Shown here: in pieces, positions 6,856-15,995 of the stretch | How positions within the stretch are numbered: position 1 is the first letter of the stretch | Layout of the letters: each line of letters opens with the position of its first letter | Origin: Bacteroidales bacterium | GTDB lineage: Bacteria; Bacteroidota; Bacteroidia; Bacteroidales; UBA7960 | DNA length: 43,588 bases | Assembly (NCBI GenBank): GCA_007125585.1 | Contig: SLCY01000086.1 | Span: 1 to 43,588, forward strand | Direction: 5' to 3' | Notes under the pieces: generated by a model | The model's input: only the letters and a program-made list of their open reading frames with translations | Told to the model about the DNA's origin: nothing | The model's database searches: none | Program-made: the position numbers and the translations under genes

Positions 6856-8181
6856 ATGAACCAGGCCGCCATCCAAAAGATTATCTCCCTCCTTGCCAAA
6901 GGAAGCAAGCCCTGCACCGACTCCCGGATTGCCGGCGAGGACGATATCTTCTTTGCCCTGAAAGGTGAACAGTTTGACGGGAACAACTTTGCAGAAAAAG
7001 CCCTGGAGGCCGGCTGTAAACTCGCCGTCGTCGACAGGGCAGAACATGTTAAAGGCGAACAGTACATCCTGGTTGATGACGTCCTCACCTTCCTGCAAAA
7101 ACTCGGGTACTTAACCCGGAAACGTATGGATATTCCCGTGGTCGGGATCACCGGAAGCAATGGCAAAACCACCACCAAAGAGCTGTTGCAGGGCATCTTC
7201 AAAAAATCTTTCGCGTCAACAGCCACCCGCAACAACCTCAACAACCATATCGGCGTACCCCTCACTTTGTTGTCGTTTAAAAAACCGCTGGATGTCGCTA
7301 TTGTTGAAATGGGGGCCAACCATAAGGGTGAAATTGACGCACTTTGCCAACTGGCAATGCCTACCCACGGGTTGATAACCAATATCGGCAAAGCCCACCT
7401 GGAAGGTTTTGGAAACATCGCAAACATCACCGCAGCAAAAGCAGAACTGTTCCGGTATCTTGAAAGGAACAACGGTACCATCTTTCTCAACAGCGATGAT
7501 GCACGACTTGAAAAACTGACAACCTCTTCTGATACCATAAATTATGGCAACAAAAGGACAAACCATTGCAGGGGAGAGATCATCCGGTCATCTCCCTATC
7601 TTGAGGTGGGGTTCAGCGTAACCAAAGATTTCGGAAAAGCTGTGAAAGGCATGGAAGGACGGGCAAATAGCAGACTCGCCGGAAGATACAATTTCGAGAA
7701 CATCATGGCAGCCATCACCACAGGCCTGTTTTTTGGCGTCCCGCCCAAAGCCGCCATTGAAGCCATTGAGTCATACCAGCCTAAAAACCATCGCTCACAG
7801 ATTATCCGGACCAGGCACAACACGGTGTTGATGGATGCATACAACGCCAATCCAACCAGCATGGGCGCCGCACTGGAAGATTTCAGCCGCTTGGAGGTAC
7901 CCTGCAAGGCCGTGATGCTGGGAGACATGCTGGAACTCGGGAAAGAAACAGAAAAGGAACACGAAAAAGTACTGGCACTTGTCAAAGAAAAAGGCTTCGA
8001 CTTCCAGCTGTTTGTCGGCAGTCACTTCCAGTCGGCATGCCGTCCTGACAGGAACATTCAAGTTTTTGTCAGTGTGGATGAGGCTGCACGATGGTTGTCA
8101 GAAAACCAGCTCAGCGACTGCCATATCCTGGTCAAAGGCTCTCGCGGGATAAAGATGGAGAACCTGCTGAAGTATTTGTGA
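6856..8181 (+). CDS. murF: UDP-N-acetylmuramoyl-tripeptide--D-alanyl-D-alanine ligase MurF
   Basis: 441 residues, normal length for the family. MurF adds D-Ala-D-Ala to UDP-MurNAc-tripeptide in the cytoplasm, the last soluble step of peptidoglycan precursor synthesis. The N-terminal UDP-binding domain contains TDSRIAGEDDIFFALKG. The central Mur-ligase ATPase domain has the P-loop GITGSNGKTTTKELL (about residues 97-111), then ATRNNLNNHIGVPLTLL and EMGANHKGEID. The C-terminal domain begins near DAYNANPTSM and contains VMLGDMLELGKETE. All of these are MurF hallmarks. The gldJ-murF arrangement recurs in Bacteroidota. Expression past the preceding terminator probably depends on read-through or an unrecognised promoter. 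Confidence 0.97.
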   Translation: MNQAAIQKIISLLAKGSKPCTDSRIAGEDDIFFALKGEQFDGNNFAEKALEAGCKLAVVDRAEHVKGEQYILVDDVLTFLQKLGYLTRKRMDIPVVGITGSNGKTTTKELLQGIFKKSFASTATRNNLNNHIGVPLTLLSFKKPLDVAIVEMGANHKGEIDALCQLAMPTHGLITNIGKAHLEGFGNIANITAAKAELFRYLERNNGTIFLNSDDARLEKLTTSSDTINYGNKRTNHCRGEIIRSSPYLEVGFSVTKDFGKAVKGMEGRANSRLAGRYNFENIMAAITTGLFFGVPPKAAIEAIESYQPKNHRSQIIRTRHNTVLMDAYNANPTSMGAALEDFSRLEVPCKAVMLGDMLELGKETEKEHEKVLALVKEKGFDFQLFVGSHFQSACRPDRNIQVFVSVDEAARWLSENQLSDCHILVKGSRGIKMENLLKYL

Positions 8182-8237: not shown

Positions 8238-9440
8238 TCACAGCTTTTCAATGACCATGGCGATGCCCTGACCCACGCCTATGCACATGGTACAAAGCGC
8301 CCTTTTAGCATTTTTACGTTGCAGCTGATAGAATGCGGTGGTTGCCAGCCGGGCACCGCTCATGCCCAGTGGATGGCCCAGTGCGATGGCCCCACCCAGG
8401 GGGTTGATGCGCGGATCATCGTCCTCCAGGCCAAGTGTGCGGATACATCCCAGCGCCTGTGCGGCGAAGGCTTCGTTAAGCTCTATGATATCCATCTGGT
8501 CAAGCCTTAAGCCCAGGCGCTTCAGAAGGGCATTGGTGGCAGGCACAGGTCCCATCCCCATAATACGGGGGGCCACACCGGCTACCGCCATCCCCAGGAT
8601 CCTTGCCTTCGGCGTCAGGCCATATTCGTTTACGGCATAACCGGAGGCAATCAAAAGGGCTGCAGCACCGTCATTAACGCCCGAGGCATTTCCGGCGGTT
8701 ATCGTCCCATTGCTGCGGGTGACCGGCTTTAATGACGCCAGTTTTTCCAGGGAGGTCTTCCTGGGATGTTCATCGGTGCTTACACTCACCGGATCACCCT
8801 TTCGCTGGGGGATGATCACCGGGACAATCTCTTCAAACAACAATCCATCCTCCTGCGCCTCAAAAGCTTTTACCTGGCTCCAGTTCGCAAAGATATCCTG
8901 GTCTTCACGGCTGACCTTAAGGTCTTTTGCAATGTTCTCGGCCGTCTCCATCATGGATTCAGTACCGTACTCTTTGTCCATCTTCTTATTGACAAAGCGC
9001 CATCCGATGGTGGTATCGTACATCTTCACCGCCCGGGAAAAGGCCTTGTCAGCCTTGTCGATGACAAAAGGGGAACGCGACATGCTTTCAACGCCGCCGG
9101 CGATGATGATCTCCGCCTCCCCCGCCTTGATGGCACGGGCTGCAGTACCGATGGCATCCATCCCTGAGCCACACAACCTGTTGATGGTCACCCCCGGTAT
9201 ATGTTCCGGCAGTCCGGCAAGCAACAACGCCATCCTCGCTACATTCCGGTTATCCTCCCCGGCCTGGTTGGCACACCCCATCATCACATCGTCCACAGGC
9301 AAACGCTCCACAGACGGGAGCCTGTCCATGATGGCTTTTACCGGTATCGCTGCCAGGTCATCCGTCCTGACAGAAGAAAGACTGCCCCCATAACGGCCAA
9401 CCGGGGTGCGCACGGCATCACAGATAAATACTTCTCTCAT
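8238..9440 (-). CDS. Thiolase, closest in character to 3-oxoadipyl-CoA thiolase (PcaF/PaaJ type)
   Basis: 400 residues, the normal length for a degradative thiolase. It cleaves a 3-oxoacyl-CoA with CoA to acetyl-CoA and a shortened acyl-CoA. Catalytic residues are visible: Cys90 in INRLCGSG, His356 in IALGHPLG and Cys386 in CIGVGQG. The N-terminal pattern (AVRTPVGRYGGSLSSVRTDD, GCANQAGEDNRNVARM, TTIGWRFVN) matches what I know of PcaF/PaaJ beta-ketoadipyl-CoA thiolases better than AtoB/PhaA acetoacetyl-CoA thiolases. Its start overlaps the aminotransferase stop by four bases (ATGA), which suggests translational coupling. It is the last gene of a five-gene operon. By inference it performs the final carbon-carbon cleavage of the beta-amino acid route. 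For 3-oxoadipyl-CoA the products would be succinyl-CoA and acetyl-CoA. Confidence 0.9.
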   Translation of the reverse strand: MREVFICDAVRTPVGRYGGSLSSVRTDDLAAIPVKAIMDRLPSVERLPVDDVMMGCANQAGEDNRNVARMALLLAGLPEHIPGVTINRLCGSGMDAIGTAARAIKAGEAEIIIAGGVESMSRSPFVIDKADKAFSRAVKMYDTTIGWRFVNKKMDKEYGTESMMETAENIAKDLKVSREDQDIFANWSQVKAFEAQEDGLLFEEIVPVIIPQRKGDPVSVSTDEHPRKTSLEKLASLKPVTRSNGTITAGNASGVNDGAAALLIASGYAVNEYGLTPKARILGMAVAGVAPRIMGMGPVPATNALLKRLGLRLDQMDIIELNEAFAAQALGCIRTLGLEDDDPRINPLGGAIALGHPLGMSGARLATTAFYQLQRKNAKRALCTMCIGVGQGIAMVIEKL

Positions 9441-10810
9441 GGCAATTGAAAATTATCCTGGTGAATCTTCTCAAGCTTGGGCTTGATGAATTTGAACCCG
9501 TTCAACATGGCTTCTGTAAGTTTATCCACTTCCTTCTGTGAAATGGCCGTCGAAAACATACAGGCACAGGTGTTGATCATCATGATGCGTTCGTGGATGT
9601 AAAAATAGTCCAACAATTCGTTGACCAATGCCACGACTTCTTTCGGCTGATAGGCTTCACGATAGGTCTTCGGGGGGGTTGCCCTGAGATGAACCCGGAA
9701 CATGGATCCGGCACCGGTCAGCGAAACGGGGACATCGGCAATTTTTATGGCTTCTTCAATCTGCTTGATGGCGATTTGTGTCAGGGCGTTCAGCCGGAGG
9801 ACCGCTTCTCTGTCGAACAGCTCCATGGCCACACGGCCTGCCGTTGTGGTGACCGGGTTGGCTGAAAAAGTGCCCGAATGGGGAAAAAGGATCTTTTTTT
9901 CGCGCGGGTCGAGCACGCGCATCACGTCTGTGCGGCCGGCCAGTGCACCCACAGGGAATCCTCCGCCGATGATCTTGCCCAGCGCAGTCATATCAGGGCG
10001 CACAGAATATTTCTCCTGGGCTCCCCCGTAATGCACACGCAAGGTGACCACTTCATCAAACACCAGCAAAGCACCGTTCTTGCGCGTCCAGTCATACAAT
10101 GCCTCAACAAACCCGTTGGTGCCCGGAACAAGTCCTACACGATGCGGCACCGGGTCGATGATCACGCAGGCGATCTTGTCTGCCTGCCGATCCAGAATGG
10201 CAATGGTCTTTTCAATATCATTGAAGGGAAAAACGACCACATCGTCAAGCACCCCCTGGGGTGTACCGTGTGCCAGTGGCACGCTGTTGGGCTGATGTAT
10301 GTCTCCCCACTGCGACGGGGCTGACGTCTGGCTGATCTCCGCAAAATCATATGTCCCGTGGTAAGCTCCCTCGGCCTTGGCAATCTTGGGGCGGCCGGTG
10401 TACGCCCTCGATGCCTTGATCATCGTCATCACGGCCTCGGTACCCGAGTTCACAAAACGTACCTTCTCAAATCCGGGGACCCTGTCACAGAGCAACTGTG
10501 CAAACAACACCTCAGCCTCGGTAGCCATGGTGTAGGCTGTCCCTTTTTGCAACTGTTCGATGACGGCATTGACAATGTCAGGATGGGCGTGCCCATGGAT
10601 AAGGGATGCCATGTTGTTGGCAAAGTCAAGACGCCGGATGCCGTCAACATCGGTAACATAGCATCCTGACGCACCGGCCGCATAAAATGGATGGGGCCTG
10701 CGAAACACCGTGTTGCGGCTCACTCCGCCGGTAATGACCTCACAGGCCTGCTTGTATATCTCTTCGCCGCTGCGCTTCGGCTTCATAGATTCTGTCACCT
10801 TGATGTTCAT
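9437..10810 (-). CDS. Class III PLP aminotransferase, GSA/beta-amino-acid type
   Basis: 457 residues of the class III (fold type I) family related to glutamate-1-semialdehyde aminomutase and to beta-phenylalanine aminotransferases. Visible elements are GGVSRNT near residue 30 (the region that in beta-amino-acid transaminases carries a substrate-binding Arg), NSGTEAV (121-127), AYHG (149-152), FDEV with Asp252, and PLP lysine Lys279 in ALGKIIGGGFPVGA. The loop that usually reads EPVxGN is DPVPHRVG here, placing an extra His-Arg pair near the active site. HemL is unlikely given this change and the catabolic operon. By context it would transaminate the beta-amino acid made by the upstream aminomutase to a beta-keto acid. 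A 121-base gap separates it from the CoA-transferase B gene, whereas its 3' end overlaps the thiolase. Substrate is inference. Confidence 0.85.
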   Translation of the reverse strand: MNIKVTESMKPKRSGEEIYKQACEVITGGVSRNTVFRRPHPFYAAGASGCYVTDVDGIRRLDFANNMASLIHGHAHPDIVNAVIEQLQKGTAYTMATEAEVLFAQLLCDRVPGFEKVRFVNSGTEAVMTMIKASRAYTGRPKIAKAEGAYHGTYDFAEISQTSAPSQWGDIHQPNSVPLAHGTPQGVLDDVVVFPFNDIEKTIAILDRQADKIACVIIDPVPHRVGLVPGTNGFVEALYDWTRKNGALLVFDEVVTLRVHYGGAQEKYSVRPDMTALGKIIGGGFPVGALAGRTDVMRVLDPREKKILFPHSGTFSANPVTTTAGRVAMELFDREAVLRLNALTQIAIKQIEEAIKIADVPVSLTGAGSMFRVHLRATPPKTYREAYQPKEVVALVNELLDYFYIHERIMMINTCACMFSTAISQKEVDKLTEAMLNGFKFIKPKLEKIHQDNFQLP

Positions 10811-10875
10811 GAATGATATATATGTTGTCTCTGGGAAATGTTATTGTTTGCATTGTGATGGTGGCTGAATAACTA

Positions 10876-10888
10876 ATATGATTCATAT
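10876..10888. promoter_or_regulatory. Perfect 13-base dyad inside the operon gap
   Basis: ATATGA-T-TCATAT is a perfect inverted repeat about 66 bases before the aminotransferase start, in the only long gap (10811-10931) among the last four genes. It could be an operator or part of an internal 5' structure. No TAnnTTTG box was found beside it, so function is a guess. Confidence 0.3.
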
Positions 10889-10931
10889 ATGAGCCATTTG
10901 CACCCCATGGGCACCTCTGTCAGGGCTGCTT

Positions 10932-11585
10932 TCATTGATTCAACCTGGCTTCCGTCTGCCCTTGCAGGTATTCAAAAGATACCCCGGGTGCAAGTTCTTT
11001 CACAAAAAGGCCTTCGCCGGCGACATCAATGATGGCCAAGTCGGTGTATATCCTGTCTACCACACCTTTCCCCGTGAGCGGGTAGGTGCATTGTTTCACA
11101 ATTTTCGGCATGCCGGTCTTGGTGACATGCTTGCTGATCACGTAAATGGTCTTCACGCCCGCCACCAGGTCCATCGCACCCCCAACAGCAGGGATGGCAC
11201 CGGGCTCGCCGGTCGACCAGTTGGCCAGGTCGCCGCTTTCCGACACCTGCAATGCCCCCAGGACACAGATGTCAATATGCTTTCCGCGTATCATCGTGAA
11301 ACTGTCGGCATGATGAAAATAACAGGCACCGGGGACAGCCGTGACACATTTCTTGCCTGCATTGATCAGCTCAGGGTTTTCTTTTCCGGGCTCAGGAGCA
11401 GGCCCCATGCCCAGCAAGCCGTTCTCGGTATGATAAATGACCTCCCGCCCCTCCGGCACAAGACCTGAAACAAGCTCCGGGATGCCTATCCCAAGGTTTA
11501 CATAAGCTCCATTGGGAATGTCCAAGGCAACCTTTCTTGCCATCTCATGAACATCCCAGCCCGTTTTTTTCTTGTTATCTACCAT
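10932..11585 (-). CDS. 3-oxoacid CoA-transferase subunit B, PcaJ-like
   Basis: 217 residues. The beta subunit of a family I CoA-transferase carries the catalytic glutamate that forms the CoA thioester intermediate: Glu54 in TENGLLGMG. GAYVNLGIGIPELV is the standard N-terminal motif. Several stretches read as PcaJ (3-oxoadipate:succinyl-CoA transferase) rather than ScoB/AtoA: FHHADSFTMIRG, GDLANWSTGEPGAIPAVGG, HVTKTG and CTYPLTG followed by RIYTDLA. The start overlaps the stop of subunit A by seven bases, so the two are almost certainly translated together. In the proposed pathway it activates the beta-keto acid, using succinyl-CoA as donor, for the thiolase encoded downstream. Activity on acetoacetate cannot be excluded from sequence alone. 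Confidence 0.9.
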   Translation of the reverse strand: MVDNKKKTGWDVHEMARKVALDIPNGAYVNLGIGIPELVSGLVPEGREVIYHTENGLLGMGPAPEPGKENPELINAGKKCVTAVPGACYFHHADSFTMIRGKHIDICVLGALQVSESGDLANWSTGEPGAIPAVGGAMDLVAGVKTIYVISKHVTKTGMPKIVKQCTYPLTGKGVVDRIYTDLAIIDVAGEGLFVKELAPGVSFEYLQGQTEARLNQ

Positions 11586-12292
11586 GGGTACCTCCTGTCT
11601 TCTGCAACAAGCGTTGACTCATCCATTGGGTCCTTCACCCCGACGACCCTGTTTACAAAAATGCCCGGCGTAACAACCGCTTCAGGGTCTATCCCGCCCA
11701 GCTCCACAATCTTCGCGGCCTGAACAATGGTCTTTTCCGCAGCAGTGCACATGACCGGGCCAAAATTCCTGGCCGTCTTGTTGTAGACCAAATTCCCGTA
11801 CCTGTCTGCCATCCTGCACTTCACCAACGAAAAGTCTGCCCGTATCGCATGTTCCAGCACAAATGTCTGCCCGTTAAAGACCCTGGTCTCTTTTCCCTCA
11901 GCAAGCGGCGTGTTTACCCCGGTGGGAGTAAAAAAGGCAGGGATGCCGGCACCCCCCGCACGTATTCGCTCGGCAAGGGTCCCCTGGGGAACCAGCTCCA
12001 GCTCTATCTCACCACGATGGAACAATTCGGGAAACACCTTTGAATTGGTCGTCCTCGGAAAAGAACAGACCATCTTTTTTACCTGCCTGTTCCCGATCAG
12101 CGCCGCAAGCCCTACATGGCCACTGCCCGTATTGTTGCTTACCACCGTGAGGTCTTTCGCACCATGATCTATCAGTGCATGCAGCAACTCTATGGGACTG
12201 CCTGCCTCACCAAACCCGCTGACCATCACAAGAGCACCATCAAAAATATCAGCAACCGCTTCAGCAGGTGAAGGGACAATTTTGTTTATCAT
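11579..12292 (-). CDS. 3-oxoacid CoA-transferase subunit A, PcaI-like
   Basis: 237 residues, the alpha subunit that builds the CoA pocket with subunit B. Typical elements are VSGFGEAGSPIELL near residues 24-37, DLTVVSNNTGSGHVGLAALI, ELVPQGTLAERIRAGGAGIP, LAEGKETR and PGIFVNRVV near the end. The segment VCSFPRTTNSKVFPELFHRG is closer to PcaI (CSFPR...VFDEL) than to ScoA/AtoD, where this region differs. That again points to a dicarboxylic beta-keto acid such as 3-oxoadipate. It follows the aminomutase gene after a 77-base spacer that contains only a small GGCCG/CGGCC hairpin (12330-12345), and it overlaps subunit B. Confidence 0.9.
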   Translation of the reverse strand: MINKIVPSPAEAVADIFDGALVMVSGFGEAGSPIELLHALIDHGAKDLTVVSNNTGSGHVGLAALIGNRQVKKMVCSFPRTTNSKVFPELFHRGEIELELVPQGTLAERIRAGGAGIPAFFTPTGVNTPLAEGKETRVFNGQTFVLEHAIRADFSLVKCRMADRYGNLVYNKTARNFGPVMCTAAEKTIVQAAKIVELGGIDPEAVVTPGIFVNRVVGVKDPMDESTLVAEDRRYPW

Positions 12293-12369
12293 CTTTTTTG
12301 AAACTTAAAGGTTGATCCGTTGACAAATGGGCCGGCTTAGCGGCCTGATCATCGCTTCCCCCGTGTGGG

Positions 12370-13992
12370 TCATTCCGTTTTGTCCATCCTTTTTTCCAGG
12401 TTTTCGGCAAGGGTCCTTTCAATCTCTGCAAGCTCATCCTCATAGAAATACTTGTCTGAATCAAAAGGTTCAAGCTTTTCAATGGCATTTTGTTTCTCAT
12501 CGTACTTTGCCAGATAAACCTCATCCAGCCACTCCATATTCCGCCCTTCGTTGAACTTCAATGCAAACACCTTCTCCCCTTTCACCTCAAGGGTGCCAAG
12601 CAAAGATACCTTGCCCGCCGAAGAGGTCATGGTGATATACCTTGATGGGCGGTTGATGGATGCCAATGACCGGTAAACCTTGCTGAAAACCTTATGGATA
12701 TCCGCCAGTGATGCCGTAAAATAATGGTGTTCTCCGGTGGGACGGGCACAATACATTGAATGAAAGCCAACCGACAGCATGGCCAGAATGTTGCCCAGGT
12801 CGATCCAGTTCCGGGCAGAACGGTCCACATCAACCTTTCCGCTGTCGTCAGTAAACAGGCTGATATGGTTCATTACAGGACTCTGGCTCTTCACCACGAC
12901 GCCATGATCCTTTAGCCGGCGTATGGCAGCGATGGTAGAAGGATTCAGGACCTCCCTGGGGGTTGAAAAGTGCGACATCATCACAACCTGGACCCCATGA
13001 TCATTGAGTTTCCGGTACAAGGCCAGGAACCTGTCATAATCCCTGCCCAGTATCATTTCAGGATGATAGGTAAGCACCCTGGTGCCAAGACGCAATGTTT
13101 TAATATGCAAAAACCCGTCGTCCTCAATGAACGGAAGAACGTATTTCTCAAGTCTGTCAAATGGCATATAAGCTGCATCTCCACCGGTAATCAACACATC
13201 GCTGACCTCTTTATGCCTCTTCAGATAACCCAGAATCTGGCCGATGTCTTCCTGAACAAACATGTCTTCATCTCCCCTGACCTGGGCATGGCGAAAGCAG
13301 TAGGTGCAAAAAGTAAAACAGTTCTGGGTCGTTTTATCAAAAACCAGATGGCATTGGGGATATTTGTGCTGGCTGCCCCTGAGGATCTCCAACTCCCCTT
13401 CCTCGTTCACAAACCATGGTTTGTTCAACAATTGTTTGCCGTCATGGGGATTGGTTTGTCGCTGATATTCCTTAACAATCCTTTCCCTTTCCCCTGCAGA
13501 CTCTGCCTCACTGTAAGCCTTCACAACATCATCCCTGATCATACCCGGCTGCGGGAACACCAACTGAAACAATGAATCTTTTGCAAAATCATTCCAGTCG
13601 ATTTTGTTAAGGACATGCTTTGTCGCCAGGAAACGGTAAACCTCAATGAAGAGTTCGCGCTCCCTGATAAAGCCGATCTCGATACCATTCTTTTCCAACA
13701 CCTCAACGATCTCCCTGAATCCCTGCAAACCGGCATAACGTTCTTTCCCGGTAAATAAAAACGGGGCCGATTCCATGATCCCGGAATACTGCGGATAACA
13801 CGATTGCAACCTTGAAAGCAGTCCGCCAGGCAACAGGTTTTCTTCCCTGATCACCTCCCGGACATCATCAGCATAATGATAACGATCCATTATTTTCTGA
13901 ATCACATCCTGCTGGATCAGGTCCTTCGCCCCTGACCCCCGCCTTCCATGTTGCTCGCTTACCGATGGTTTAAAAGTGCCTGATTGAGCCAT
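12370..13992 (-). CDS. KamA-family radical SAM/PLP aminomutase with non-lysine pocket
   Basis: 540 residues, longer than the roughly 416-residue clostridial lysine 2,3-aminomutase because of an N-terminal extension. The family shifts an amino group from C2 to C3 using a [4Fe-4S]-SAM radical and PLP. The cluster motif is C225-x3-C229-x2-C232. Arg234 sits where KamA Arg134 holds the substrate carboxylate. VLITGGDAAYMPFDRL is the usual GGD region. Lys461 in SSAGKVSLLG aligns with the PLP lysine of GGGGK (KamA Lys337). The two aspartates that bind the lysine epsilon-amine (KamA Asp293, Asp330) align with Ala416 (next to Arg417) and Thr454. A lysine substrate is therefore unlikely. The glutamate enzyme's reported Lys/Asn pair is also absent. 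First gene of the operon, with its own predicted promoter. Substrate unknown; 2-aminoadipate is proposed. Confidence 0.88.
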   Translation of the reverse strand: MAQSGTFKPSVSEQHGRRGSGAKDLIQQDVIQKIMDRYHYADDVREVIREENLLPGGLLSRLQSCYPQYSGIMESAPFLFTGKERYAGLQGFREIVEVLEKNGIEIGFIRERELFIEVYRFLATKHVLNKIDWNDFAKDSLFQLVFPQPGMIRDDVVKAYSEAESAGERERIVKEYQRQTNPHDGKQLLNKPWFVNEEGELEILRGSQHKYPQCHLVFDKTTQNCFTFCTYCFRHAQVRGDEDMFVQEDIGQILGYLKRHKEVSDVLITGGDAAYMPFDRLEKYVLPFIEDDGFLHIKTLRLGTRVLTYHPEMILGRDYDRFLALYRKLNDHGVQVVMMSHFSTPREVLNPSTIAAIRRLKDHGVVVKSQSPVMNHISLFTDDSGKVDVDRSARNWIDLGNILAMLSVGFHSMYCARPTGEHHYFTASLADIHKVFSKVYRSLASINRPSRYITMTSSAGKVSLLGTLEVKGEKVFALKFNEGRNMEWLDEVYLAKYDEKQNAIEKLEPFDSDKYFYEDELAEIERTLAENLEKRMDKTE

Positions 13993-14192: not shown

Positions 14193-15083
14193 TCATACCA
14201 TTTGCTCCAGGGCATCCCTCAATGTCTCTATTCCTGCTTTTCTGGCAGGATCGCCACTATGCTCATAGGCTGCCACAAGGTTGTTCAGCATTCGCAAAAC
14301 GATCTCTTTGTTGCTGCACGGTTCAAAGAAAGTGGGTATGGGATCAAGGTCAAGTTTACGGAGGAAGTCATTGATCTCCTTCTCTGAAAACAACGCACCG
14401 TCGCTGAAAGCATTGATATAGAAAAGTGGCTTATCATCACGCATCAGCAGGGTTTCTGTGTCGATCGTCTCACCCATGTAAGCCAGGACAAAGTGTTCAG
14501 GCAAATTGACCCCCATGATGGGCAGATTCACCCTCCGGGCCACCGTCATATACAGGATGCCAATACTCAGCGGGTTGCCTTGACGGCTCTGCAACACCCT
14601 GTTGATAAATGAATTGTCCGGGTGATGATAATCTTCAATATTCCCCCTGAAGCGGTGCATTCTGTAAAAAACATGGTTAAAAACCTTCACCTGCTCCAAA
14701 GCCGTCAGATTGTCGTTCATCTCCAACCACACATCCTTCCGGATCCTGTCGATCTCCTTCCTGATGTTTTCTTCCTGCACATCAGGATAGTGATGTTTGG
14801 TCACCAGCAACCAGGCGTTCAAAAGATCATCCTGTTCATTGCTTGCAGCATAGGCTGTCAACGCATGCAAAATCGTCTCGTTACGGATCTGCTGCACCAG
14901 CAACCCAACACGACTGCGCAAATTTTCGTCTGTAATATGCGCCAACTCCTGTTCAAGAAAAGGGATGGCATCATGGCCATGGTGACGTATCTTGCCTGCA
15001 ATGTCCCTGAAAATATCCGGATCGGGCTCATCGATCATGCTCACCAATGCCTGTATTTCCCTGTTTGTCGTCCTGTTGGCCAT
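14193..15083 (-). CDS. SirB1-type transglutaminase-like family protein
   Basis: 296 residues. The SirB1 family has a transglutaminase-like core and, in proteobacteria, often sits near prmC and kdsA. Its biochemical role is not established. Visible features are a helical N-terminal region of about 90 residues, then the core with YHHPDNSFINRVLQSRQGNPLSIGILYM (about 147-174; the GNPLSI segment is a family signature), RVNLPIMGVNLPEHFVLAY, and a C-terminal DPIPTFFEPCSNKEIVLRML. The expected cysteine of an active transglutaminase is not evident at GNPLSIG, as is usual in SirB1 proteins, so enzymatic activity is doubtful. It lies 24 bases after the nucleoside phosphorylase gene and is probably co-transcribed with it. 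The aminomutase operon has its own promoter. Confidence 0.75.
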   Translation of the reverse strand: MANRTTNREIQALVSMIDEPDPDIFRDIAGKIRHHGHDAIPFLEQELAHITDENLRSRVGLLVQQIRNETILHALTAYAASNEQDDLLNAWLLVTKHHYPDVQEENIRKEIDRIRKDVWLEMNDNLTALEQVKVFNHVFYRMHRFRGNIEDYHHPDNSFINRVLQSRQGNPLSIGILYMTVARRVNLPIMGVNLPEHFVLAYMGETIDTETLLMRDDKPLFYINAFSDGALFSEKEINDFLRKLDLDPIPTFFEPCSNKEIVLRMLNNLVAAYEHSGDPARKAGIETLRDALEQMV

Positions 15084-15107: not shown

Positions 15108-15995
15108 TTAGGAGCCGACGAGCCTGTCCAGCACATAACGTATCATTTCATCCACAGATTTTTTATAATCCTTGCTGTATTCTTTTCTTGACCTGTTGGC
15201 GATCACATCGCATACCGTCAAGGTATGATGTCCGAGTATTTTCCCCAGCGCATACAAGGCAGAGGTCTCCATCTCAAAATTGATGATCCGCTGGTTCTCA
15301 TAACGGAAACTTTCAATTTTTTGATTCATTTCCGGAAAAGCAAGCGGTATGCGCAACTCCCTTCCCTGTGGCCCGAAAAACCCATTGGCTGTTGCCGTGA
15401 TCCCCTGGCGCAATTCAGGAGCTATCTTGTCCAGCAGCGATTTGGATGCAGGCACAATATATGGCGCGGACAACTTGTCGCTCCATGCGGTATGTTTTAC
15501 AAATGCTTCTGCCATGGCTCCCTCTGTAAGTGCATCGTCATGGCGGTAAAAATGCAACAGGCCGTCAAAACCCAAACCAAAACGGGAAGCGACAAAAGAA
15601 TCTACGGGAATATCAGGCTGAAGGGCCCCCGATGTGCCCAGCCGGATGATATTCAAAGAAGTATGCTTTTCTTTTGGAATGCGCTTTTCCAGGTCAATAT
15701 TCACCGCGGCATCCAGCTCATTCAGTACGATATCAATGTTGTCTGTCCCGATACCGGTCGAGAGCACCGTGATGCGCTCATTTTTACAATATCCCGTATG
15801 GGTGCGGAACTCCCTGTTGATTATCTCATGCTCTATCTTGTCGAAATAGCCCGATATCATGGAAACCCTCTGCTGATCTCCCACCACAATCACGGTCCCG
15901 GCAATGTGTTCAGGCCGCAGATTCAAATGATAGAGGCTTCCGTCCGGATTGATGATAAGCTCCGATTCTTTAAACTTTCTCATGGCTTGTGTCAT
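15108..15995 (-). CDS. Nucleoside phosphorylase (uridine phosphorylase-like)
   Basis: 295 residues of the PNP/UDP phosphorylase family (hexameric type I), which cleaves nucleosides with phosphate to base and pentose-1-phosphate in salvage. Seen: VIVVGDQQRVSMIS near the N-terminus (the GDPxR phosphate-site equivalent reads GDQQR), STGIGTDNIDIVLNEL, RLGTSGALQPDIPVD, and NFEMETSALYALGKILGH with the family Glu-Met-Glu motif binding ribose. The C-terminal CDVIANRSRKEY follows. The overall pattern is nearer to uridine phosphorylase than to purine nucleoside phosphorylase. I cannot assign the base preference. The start MTQAMRKFKE has a second methionine five codons later that could equally be used. 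Confidence 0.85.
   Translation of the reverse strand: MTQAMRKFKESELIINPDGSLYHLNLRPEHIAGTVIVVGDQQRVSMISGYFDKIEHEIINREFRTHTGYCKNERITVLSTGIGTDNIDIVLNELDAAVNIDLEKRIPKEKHTSLNIIRLGTSGALQPDIPVDSFVASRFGLGFDGLLHFYRHDDALTEGAMAEAFVKHTAWSDKLSAPYIVPASKSLLDKIAPELRQGITATANGFFGPQGRELRIPLAFPEMNQKIESFRYENQRIINFEMETSALYALGKILGHHTLTVCDVIANRSRKEYSKDYKKSVDEMIRYVLDRLVGS

Follow-up and report, generated by a model that had tools for sequence, protein, structure and literature searches.

In the 43,588-nucleotide contig SLCY01000086.1 of a Bacteroidales bacterium (assembly GCA_007125585.1), which was analysed at its full length and is hereafter called the window, five genes on the minus strand encode a KamA-like radical S-adenosylmethionine (SAM) aminomutase (KAM), the two subunits of a 3-oxoacid CoA-transferase (CTA and CTB), a class III aminotransferase (AT) and a thiolase (THL). 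We hypothesize that this operon is the lower half of an oxygen-independent catabolism of lysine via 2-aminoadipate, a reading that we consider likely and for which we infer the substrates, the order of the reactions and their direction. With somewhat less assurance, we favor the view that KAM is a new enzyme, a 2-aminoadipate 2,3-aminomutase, which would feed 2-aminoadipate into the last steps of the beta-ketoadipate pathway, all six carbons of lysine being retained as acetyl-CoA and succinate.

In the proposed route, lysine would be converted to 2-aminoadipate semialdehyde by lysine-ketoglutarate reductase (LKR) and saccharopine dehydrogenase (SDH), both encoded elsewhere in the same genome, and the semialdehyde would be oxidized to 2-aminoadipate. 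KAM would then shift the alpha-amino group to C3 to give 3-aminoadipate, AT would hand this amino group to 2-oxoglutarate and leave 3-oxoadipate, CTA and CTB would activate 3-oxoadipate with succinyl-CoA, and THL would cleave the resulting 3-oxoadipyl-CoA into acetyl-CoA (C1-C2 of lysine) and succinyl-CoA (C3-C6). In sum, 2-aminoadipate, 2-oxoglutarate and CoA would yield glutamate, acetyl-CoA and succinate, without O2 and without decarboxylation. Amino acid catabolism started by an aminomutase is already known; what would be new here is the enzyme and the junction to the beta-ketoadipate pathway. A literature search, weak in that it covered open-licence papers only, returned no description of the pathway, of 3-aminoadipate, or of an aminomutase joined with aminoadipate and oxoadipate.

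The initial annotation had placed five same-strand open reading frames (ORFs) of these families in the window and had called three of their four junctions tight or short. All five ORFs are present, the families agree with ours, and the description of the junctions is fair. In the order of transcription, they are KAM (12370..13992, 540 amino acids), recognized by weak KamA matches and an AlphaFold2 model; CTA (11579..12292, 237 amino acids; TIGR02429) and CTB (10932..11585, 217 amino acids; TIGR02428), PcaI- and PcaJ-like subunits of a putative 3-oxoadipate:succinyl-CoA CoA-transferase; AT (9437..10810, 457 amino acids; PF00202), a glutamate-1-semialdehyde (GSA) aminomutase-like protein and candidate 3-aminoadipate:2-oxoglutarate transaminase; and THL (8238..9440, 400 amino acids; TIGR02430), a predicted PcaF/PaaJ-type 3-oxoadipyl-CoA thiolase. 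From KAM to THL, the intergenic gaps are 77, -7, 121 and -4 bases.

The module is kept together in relatives and across phyla. A KAM scan of genome contigs provided our sample, 80 of the 83 loci found, with 56 to 83% identity to KAM. The order KAM-CTA-CTB-AT-THL stands on one strand in 57 of these 80 loci, while 17 are cut by a contig end and six differ, so that the order is kept in 57 of the 63 uncut loci. Three of the deviating loci (L050, L067 and L076) have no THL nearby, in one (L063) the thiolase is a different one and lies on the opposite strand, one (L064) is without a recognisable AT, and one (L073) has KAM and AT only. Loci with the full order occur in eight phyla (NCBI names: Bacteroidota, Balneolota, Ignavibacteriota, Acidobacteriota, Sumerlaeota, Eisenbacteria, Neomarinimicrobiota and Pseudomonadota). 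By record title, which can be wrong, the KAM loci as a whole belong to Bacteroidales and other Bacteroidota, Balneolales, Rhodothermaceae, Ignavibacteriae, Acidobacteria, Sumerlaeota, Eisenbacteria, Neomarinimicrobiota, Elusimicrobia, Chlorobiota, Actinobacteria, and Pseudomonadota with relatives (Shewanella, Photobacterium, Pseudoalteromonas, Geobacter, Rhodospirillales and Hyphomicrobiales). Most carriers are metagenome-assembled genomes (MAGs), and many are sediment, digester or marine bacteria. Within the order of the window, KAM was found at E <= 1e-100 in 18 of 295 sampled genomes and was absent from two of three sampled congeners, and the module is therefore patchy there. The conserved five-gene order is more than chance.

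Family models recognize KAM only distantly. KamA models match it over the radical SAM part alone (TIGR00238, 70.7 bits against a cut-off of 199.2), the Pfam model Radical_SAM is barely reached (29.7 against 29.5 bits), and KAM falls below the cut-offs for lysine 2,3-aminomutase (LAM; AblA, TIGR03820, 64 bits against 525.4) and for glutamate 2,3-aminomutase (TIGR04368, 60.4 bits against 650). Its sole sequence match among solved structures is the LAM 2a5h. An AlphaFold2 model of KAM built from 44 sequences (pLDDT 85.7, pTM 0.88) superposes on 2a5h with a VIA-align Z of 30.1 (3.4 Å over 325 residues), the next fold reaching a Z of 12.3, and Foldseek matches the model to 2a5h at E 1e-12. Judged from this model, KAM has the fold of KamA and LAM.

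The cysteines of the CX3CX2C motif (C225, C229 and C232), R234 and K461 are invariant in 44/44 KAM orthologues and align with the cysteines, the carboxylate-binding Arg and the pyridoxal phosphate (PLP) lysine of plasmid-encoded AblA proteins. In 2a5h, we take the corresponding residues to be the cluster cysteines, the Arg that binds the substrate carboxylate (counterpart of R234) and the PLP lysine (counterpart of K461). D293 and D330 of LAM are presumably the Asp pair that holds the side-chain ammonium of lysine. In a MAFFT alignment, the column of the first Asp is occupied in KAM by Arg417, again invariant in 44/44 orthologues, and that of the second by Thr or Ser (position 454). Speaking against this placement of the Arg, the profile-profile register (hhalign) sets Ala416 rather than Arg417 opposite the Asp, one residue off that of MAFFT. 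We prefer the Arg417 register because eight Bacteroidota paralogues (31 to 36% identical) and two actinobacterial relatives, which have a PYY motif as in AblA together with an RxTG...(Y/F)F motif as in KAM, bridge the two sets of motifs gap-free, with Arg at the Asp column in all of them (8/8 and both relatives). Under either register, the lysine-binding Asp is lost from the aligned KAM sequences, and an Arg at the side-chain position would fit an acidic amino acid as the substrate.

In a midpoint-rooted tree, KAM groups with the two actinobacterial relatives (29-33% identity), apart from AblA and EpmB. One of these relatives, from Streptomyces, is encoded in a polyketide gene cluster, near genes for an AMP ligase and a PLP enzyme, and resembles IdnL4 by this gene context, on which alone the two were compared. 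According to a review, IdnL4 is likely to be the glutamate 2,3-aminomutase that acts in the synthesis of incednine, on the basis of gene disruption, without in vitro activity (PMC11284099). A KAM relative was also seen on the Rhodococcus plasmid pDK3 (L157 6929-13723), in what appears to be a gene cluster for a natural product that also encodes monooxygenases, ATP-grasp proteins and a protein with a saccharopine dehydrogenase domain. Apart from these, a second KamA-like family, 32-38% identical to KAM, occurs in 37/395 genomes of the phylum Bacteroidota at E <= 1e-60. Its members carry the same Arg at the specificity position in 8/8 stretches examined (L177-L184; genomes G326, G263, G110, G005, G070, G116, G236 and G037), in which no neighbouring gene is common to more than three; one might speculate that these proteins act alone as glutamate 2,3-aminomutases and supply beta-glutamate as an osmolyte. 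In the genome of the window itself, the only other KAM-related protein found is a distant one of 741 amino acids (L002 463-2688, contig C85), whose core resembles KamA and which matches no Pfam model.

THL exceeds the cut-off of the pcaF model (TIGR02430, 672 bits against 597) and is 65% identical to PaaJ of E. coli and 58 to 69% identical to four annotated pcaF products (68.5% in one case), compared with 46% for AtoB. Of the 20 operon thiolases placed in a tree of 27 rows, 19 fall within the PcaF/PaaJ group, that of L063 being the exception, and AtoB is separated from this group at 100/100. For PcaF of P. putida, the catalytic residues and those of a covering loop around 143-148 have been described (PMC7337054). 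THL keeps both sets, and C90, H356 and C386 as well as T144, G146 and R148 are invariant in 20 aligned operon thiolases. Similarly, CTA and CTB exceed the cut-offs of TIGR02429 (pcaI/scoA, 342 against 128.5 bits) and TIGR02428 (pcaJ/scoB, 290 against 243.6 bits), two subfamily models that also cover ScoAB. Joined, the two subunits share 56% identity with the pair encoded in a Sphingobium ring-cleavage (cat/pca) cluster and 54% with a Rhizobium pair beside pcaF, and only 39% with AtoDA and 38 to 42% with Bacillus yod pairs. They form one 100/100 clade with the Sphingobium and Rhizobium pairs, away from AtoDA and YodSR, in a tree from which ScoAB was absent; a fused CoA-transferase from a Hymenobacter pca cluster lies outside this clade on a long branch. 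Based on these comparisons, THL is of the PcaF type and CTA/CTB are of the PcaIJ type, as the initial annotation had read them, and they do not group with the acetoacetate enzymes AtoB and AtoDA.

Aromatic ring cleavage offers no evident explanation for these genes in the genome of the window. THL is its only pcaF-type match at E <= 1e-120, and no intradiol ring-cleavage dioxygenase was found there, in a search confined to the intradiol type, extradiol and phenylacetate pathways lying outside it. Among carrier genomes, our counts of which cover the genomes of 50 of the 80 loci, 5/52 have an intradiol dioxygenase match. As a separate observation on the CoA-transferase, an Elusimicrobia-labelled MAG (L025 5060-6750) has a second, more distant pair (43-49% identity) directly upstream of KAM.

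If KAM acted on lysine itself, the operon would resemble the yod operon of Bacillus, in which beta-lysine would be acetylated, transaminated, activated with CoA and cleaved; yod-type operons do have like kinds of genes, namely an aminotransferase, CoA-transferase subunits A and B, and ablA. We regard this as very unlikely. Both lysine-binding Asp residues are lost in KAM, which scores far below the AblA cut-off, the CoA-transferases fall in another clade than the yod pair, and the yod aminotransferase matches another family (PRK06917). Moreover, the acetyltransferase ablB and the YodQ-type peptidase/deacetylase were found in 0/80 loci at E <= 1e-5, using three AblB and two YodQ-type queries that recover each other's loci. 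Finally, Draconibacterium orientale encodes, in addition to the operon, an AblA of its own that passes the cut-off (770 bits, cut-off 525), the only one among the 52 carrier genomes, and KAM therefore presumably does something else.

AT belongs to Aminotran_3 (PF00202), lies under the cut-off of every NCBIfam model among the 25 matches listed, and reaches 335 bits against a cut-off of 527 for GSA aminomutase (HemL). The solved chains nearest to it are 6k8h and ForI, followed by GSA aminomutases and beta-transaminases. AT thus appears to be related to HemL yet outside it by the cut-off. As to the order of the steps, the CoA-transferase might act first, making 3-aminoadipyl-CoA, and AT might then transaminate this CoA ester, in the way that Kat of lysine-fermenting digester bacteria uses 3-aminobutyryl-CoA. 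Like AT, Kat belongs to the HemL-like class III aminotransferases; it is encoded beside lysine genes and is active on CoA esters only (PMC3149608). The gene order, in which CTA and CTB precede AT, would suit such a sequence of steps. Known substrates of 3-oxoacid CoA-transferases carry a 3-oxo group. CTA and CTB are of the 3-oxoacid type, which speaks against activation before transamination, and we consider that order unlikely.

The proposal that the amino acid is 2-aminoadipate draws on the company that the operon keeps. A member of the 2-aminoadipate-semialdehyde (L-piperidine-6-carboxylate) dehydrogenase family NF050084 lies beside the operon in 10/80 loci. Eight of these come from a single group of Bacteroidota, titled Prolixibacteraceae or grouping with them; another, in a Geobacter MAG, has a copy on either side of the operon, and in the last, in a Hyphomicrobiales MAG, the gene is cut by the contig end. 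The linked dehydrogenase was scanned in nine of the ten loci and reached 799 to 807 bits there, above the cut-off of 730. A saccharopine dehydrogenase lies beside the operon in 8/80 loci (three proteins from two loci were checked against Pfam). About 0.2 linkages would be expected by chance among 80 stretches of 15 kb, assuming about one dehydrogenase gene per 4 Mb genome in half of the genomes. In the genome of the window, an LKR of 435 amino acids, whose best solved match is human alpha-aminoadipic semialdehyde synthase (E 2e-75), is adjacent to an SDH of 452 amino acids on contig C115. Among the 295 genomes of the order, LKR occurs at E <= 1e-40 in 17/18 KAM genomes and 140/277 others (p 1.4e-4), the sole KAM genome missing it being 70% complete; at E <= 1e-75 the figures are 15/18 and 70/277 (p 1.1e-6). 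This strict cut was chosen after seeing the score gap, and related genomes, such as those of one family, are not independent. The saccharopine enzymes, the dehydrogenase linkage and the Arg at the specificity position thus all lend support to 2-aminoadipate, the amino acid proposed in the initial annotation, although both the substrate and the activities are still predictions.

A PcaIJ-like pair also occurs near such a dehydrogenase outside the sampled loci. The best CoA-transferase pair found on plasmids, from Tistrella (66% identity to CTA+CTB), lies on pTM2 of Tistrella mobilis, where an NF050084-type dehydrogenase (798 bits, cut-off 730) is encoded 3.5 kb away and a DUF1338 protein 2.2 kb away. 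The stretch (L086 2961-9391) holds the pair, the dehydrogenase, the DUF1338 gene and an aminotransferase together, and is perhaps another lysine-linked cluster.

An acidic side chain would also suit glutamate, which could be converted to beta-glutamate, 3-oxoglutarate and its CoA ester, the last being split into acetyl-CoA and malonyl-CoA. An Arg at the specificity position is compatible with acidic amino acids in general, a route from lysine to 2-aminoadipate is not visible in three of the five gammaproteobacterial carriers tested, and the actinobacterial relatives are like IdnL4 by context, the evidence for the activity of the latter being in vivo only (PMC11284099). On the other hand, the thiolase and the transferase are of the type acting on the six-carbon 3-oxoadipate, the recurring metabolic neighbours found are lysine genes (not every neighbour was identified), and KAM reaches only 60 bits against 650 on the glutamate 2,3-aminomutase model. 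Taken together, glutamate seems to us an unlikely substrate.

A neutral amino acid would be still harder to reconcile with these observations. For example, leucine could pass through beta-leucine and a branched 3-oxoacid to isobutyryl-CoA and acetyl-CoA; a leucine 2,3-aminomutase has been claimed historically. Degradative PcaF-type thiolases, having a long tunnel, may take several chains (PMC7337054). An invariant Arg would be unexpected opposite a neutral side chain, and lysine genes recur beside the operon, so that we hold a neutral substrate to be highly improbable. The operon might also run in reverse and make 3- or 2-aminoadipate from succinyl-CoA and acetyl-CoA, every step being chemically reversible in principle. 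The condensation direction of thiolases is unfavourable. In addition, PcaF thiolases are classed as degradative (PMC7337054), and the operon is linked to enzymes that lead from lysine to 2-aminoadipate; the reverse direction therefore has, in our view, hardly any likelihood. Degradation of 2-aminoadipate accordingly remains the reading that we prefer.

Several observations weigh against this preference for 2-aminoadipate. The genome of the window has no NF050084 match at E <= 1e-150 and just two aldehyde dehydrogenases at E <= 1e-20, one of which is succinate-semialdehyde-dehydrogenase-like and below the cut-off; the neighbourhood of its aldehyde dehydrogenase on contig C87 is uninformative. 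Since the usual dehydrogenase is missing there, the oxidation of 2-aminoadipate semialdehyde in this genome is a step that we infer. NF050084 occurs in 5/18 KAM genomes against 70/277 others of the order (p 0.5), with a background of 195/395 in the phylum sample. We therefore dropped its co-occurrence at the level of genomes as evidence and count physical linkage alone. The linked loci amount to three independent cases, since a single Bacteroidota group contributes eight of the ten. Among carriers, NF050084 is found in 30/53 entries (29/52 without one duplicate) and Sacchrp_dh_C, a model that presumably also catches carboxynorspermidine enzymes, in 42/52. At the cuts used, neither model finds a match in six of the 52 (G417, G419, G421, G427, G432 and G441), which include Pseudoalteromonas denitrificans and two Shewanella, although in G441 the dehydrogenase gene is truncated by a contig end; of the five gammaproteobacterial carriers, three match neither and two match Sacchrp_dh_C only. 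An aldehyde dehydrogenase beside the Shewanella operons, taken from clustering as a possible semialdehyde dehydrogenase, was rejected by the family scan. Most carriers, moreover, are MAGs of unstated completeness. Lastly, a pcaF-type thiolase is missing at E <= 1e-120 from G441 and G443, two genomes whose operons are incomplete. This also weakens the idea that carriers of incomplete operons pass 3-oxoadipate to a separate pca pathway, even though G441, G433 and G443, all with incomplete operons, do have an intradiol dioxygenase match.

Around the operon, the window holds two further same-strand ORFs upstream of KAM, one transglutaminase-like (14193-15083) and one nucleoside-phosphorylase-like (15108-15995). 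Both were considered as members and excluded from the operon because they are adjacent to it in close relatives only, the transglutaminase-like gene adjoining it in 8/80 loci. Past THL, a Mur ligase family gene (6856-8181) lies on the opposite strand. A scan of the window for promoters and terminators gave counts within about 1.5 standard deviations of shuffles and is unused as evidence. In other loci, an XRE-cupin-like regulator precedes the operon just upstream of KAM (9/80 loci, e.g., L034 8392-8946), and a LysR-type regulator lies upstream of KAM in seven marine gammaproteobacterial loci. These regulators, typed by scanning one protein of each kind against family models, are candidate sensors of the inducer.

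If the proposed pathway is correct, it would allow lysine to be degraded without oxygen and without the two decarboxylations that the glutaryl-CoA route involves, by a pathway in which two well-known halves, saccharopine and beta-ketoadipate, are joined by one new radical enzyme. It would also provide a substrate for an aminomutase clade that models see as distantly LAM-like, and account for PcaIJF-like genes in bacteria without aromatic ring cleavage. A lysine route to 3-aminoadipate and to 3-oxoadipate, an adipate precursor, may further be of biotechnological interest.

Compared with known systems, the operon shares with the yod/abl operon of Bacillus the combination of an aminomutase, a class III aminotransferase and a 3-oxoacid CoA-transferase. 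However, the yod cluster has a true LAM, ablB and a peptidase/deacetylase and lacks a thiolase, its CoA-transferase is 38-42% identical and in another clade, and its aminotransferase is of another family. With the lower part of the beta-ketoadipate pathway (PcaIJ and PcaF/PaaJ), the operon shares the CoA-transferase and thiolase families, whereas 3-oxoadipate is here proposed to come from an amino acid, in a genome without an intradiol dioxygenase match. KAM itself is like AblA (2a5h) in its fold, cluster cysteines, PLP lysine and carboxylate Arg, but is less than 29% identical to it, over the radical SAM part only, has a longer N-terminus, and has Arg and Thr/Ser in place of the Asp pair. The Arg and the RxTG motif are found in two actinobacterial proteins, one of them in a context similar to that of IdnL4-type enzymes; these, likened by context and not by the IdnL4 sequence, serve antibiotic (macrolactam) biosynthesis, in which beta-glutamate is decarboxylated.

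Among the routes of lysine degradation, the one through saccharopine, 2-aminoadipate, 2-oxoadipate and glutaryl-CoA has the same upper steps to 2-aminoadipate semialdehyde, while in the proposed pathway 2-oxoadipate and glutaryl-CoA would not be intermediates and no CO2 would be released. Lysine fermentation (kam/kdd/kce) is likewise an anaerobic use of lysine initiated by an aminomutase and, in its Kat variant, involves a HemL-like aminotransferase (PMC3149608). In contrast to the pathway that we propose, the fermentation, in its Kal or Kat variant, employs a beta-lysine 5,6-aminomutase and a cleavage enzyme and leads to butyrate and acetate.

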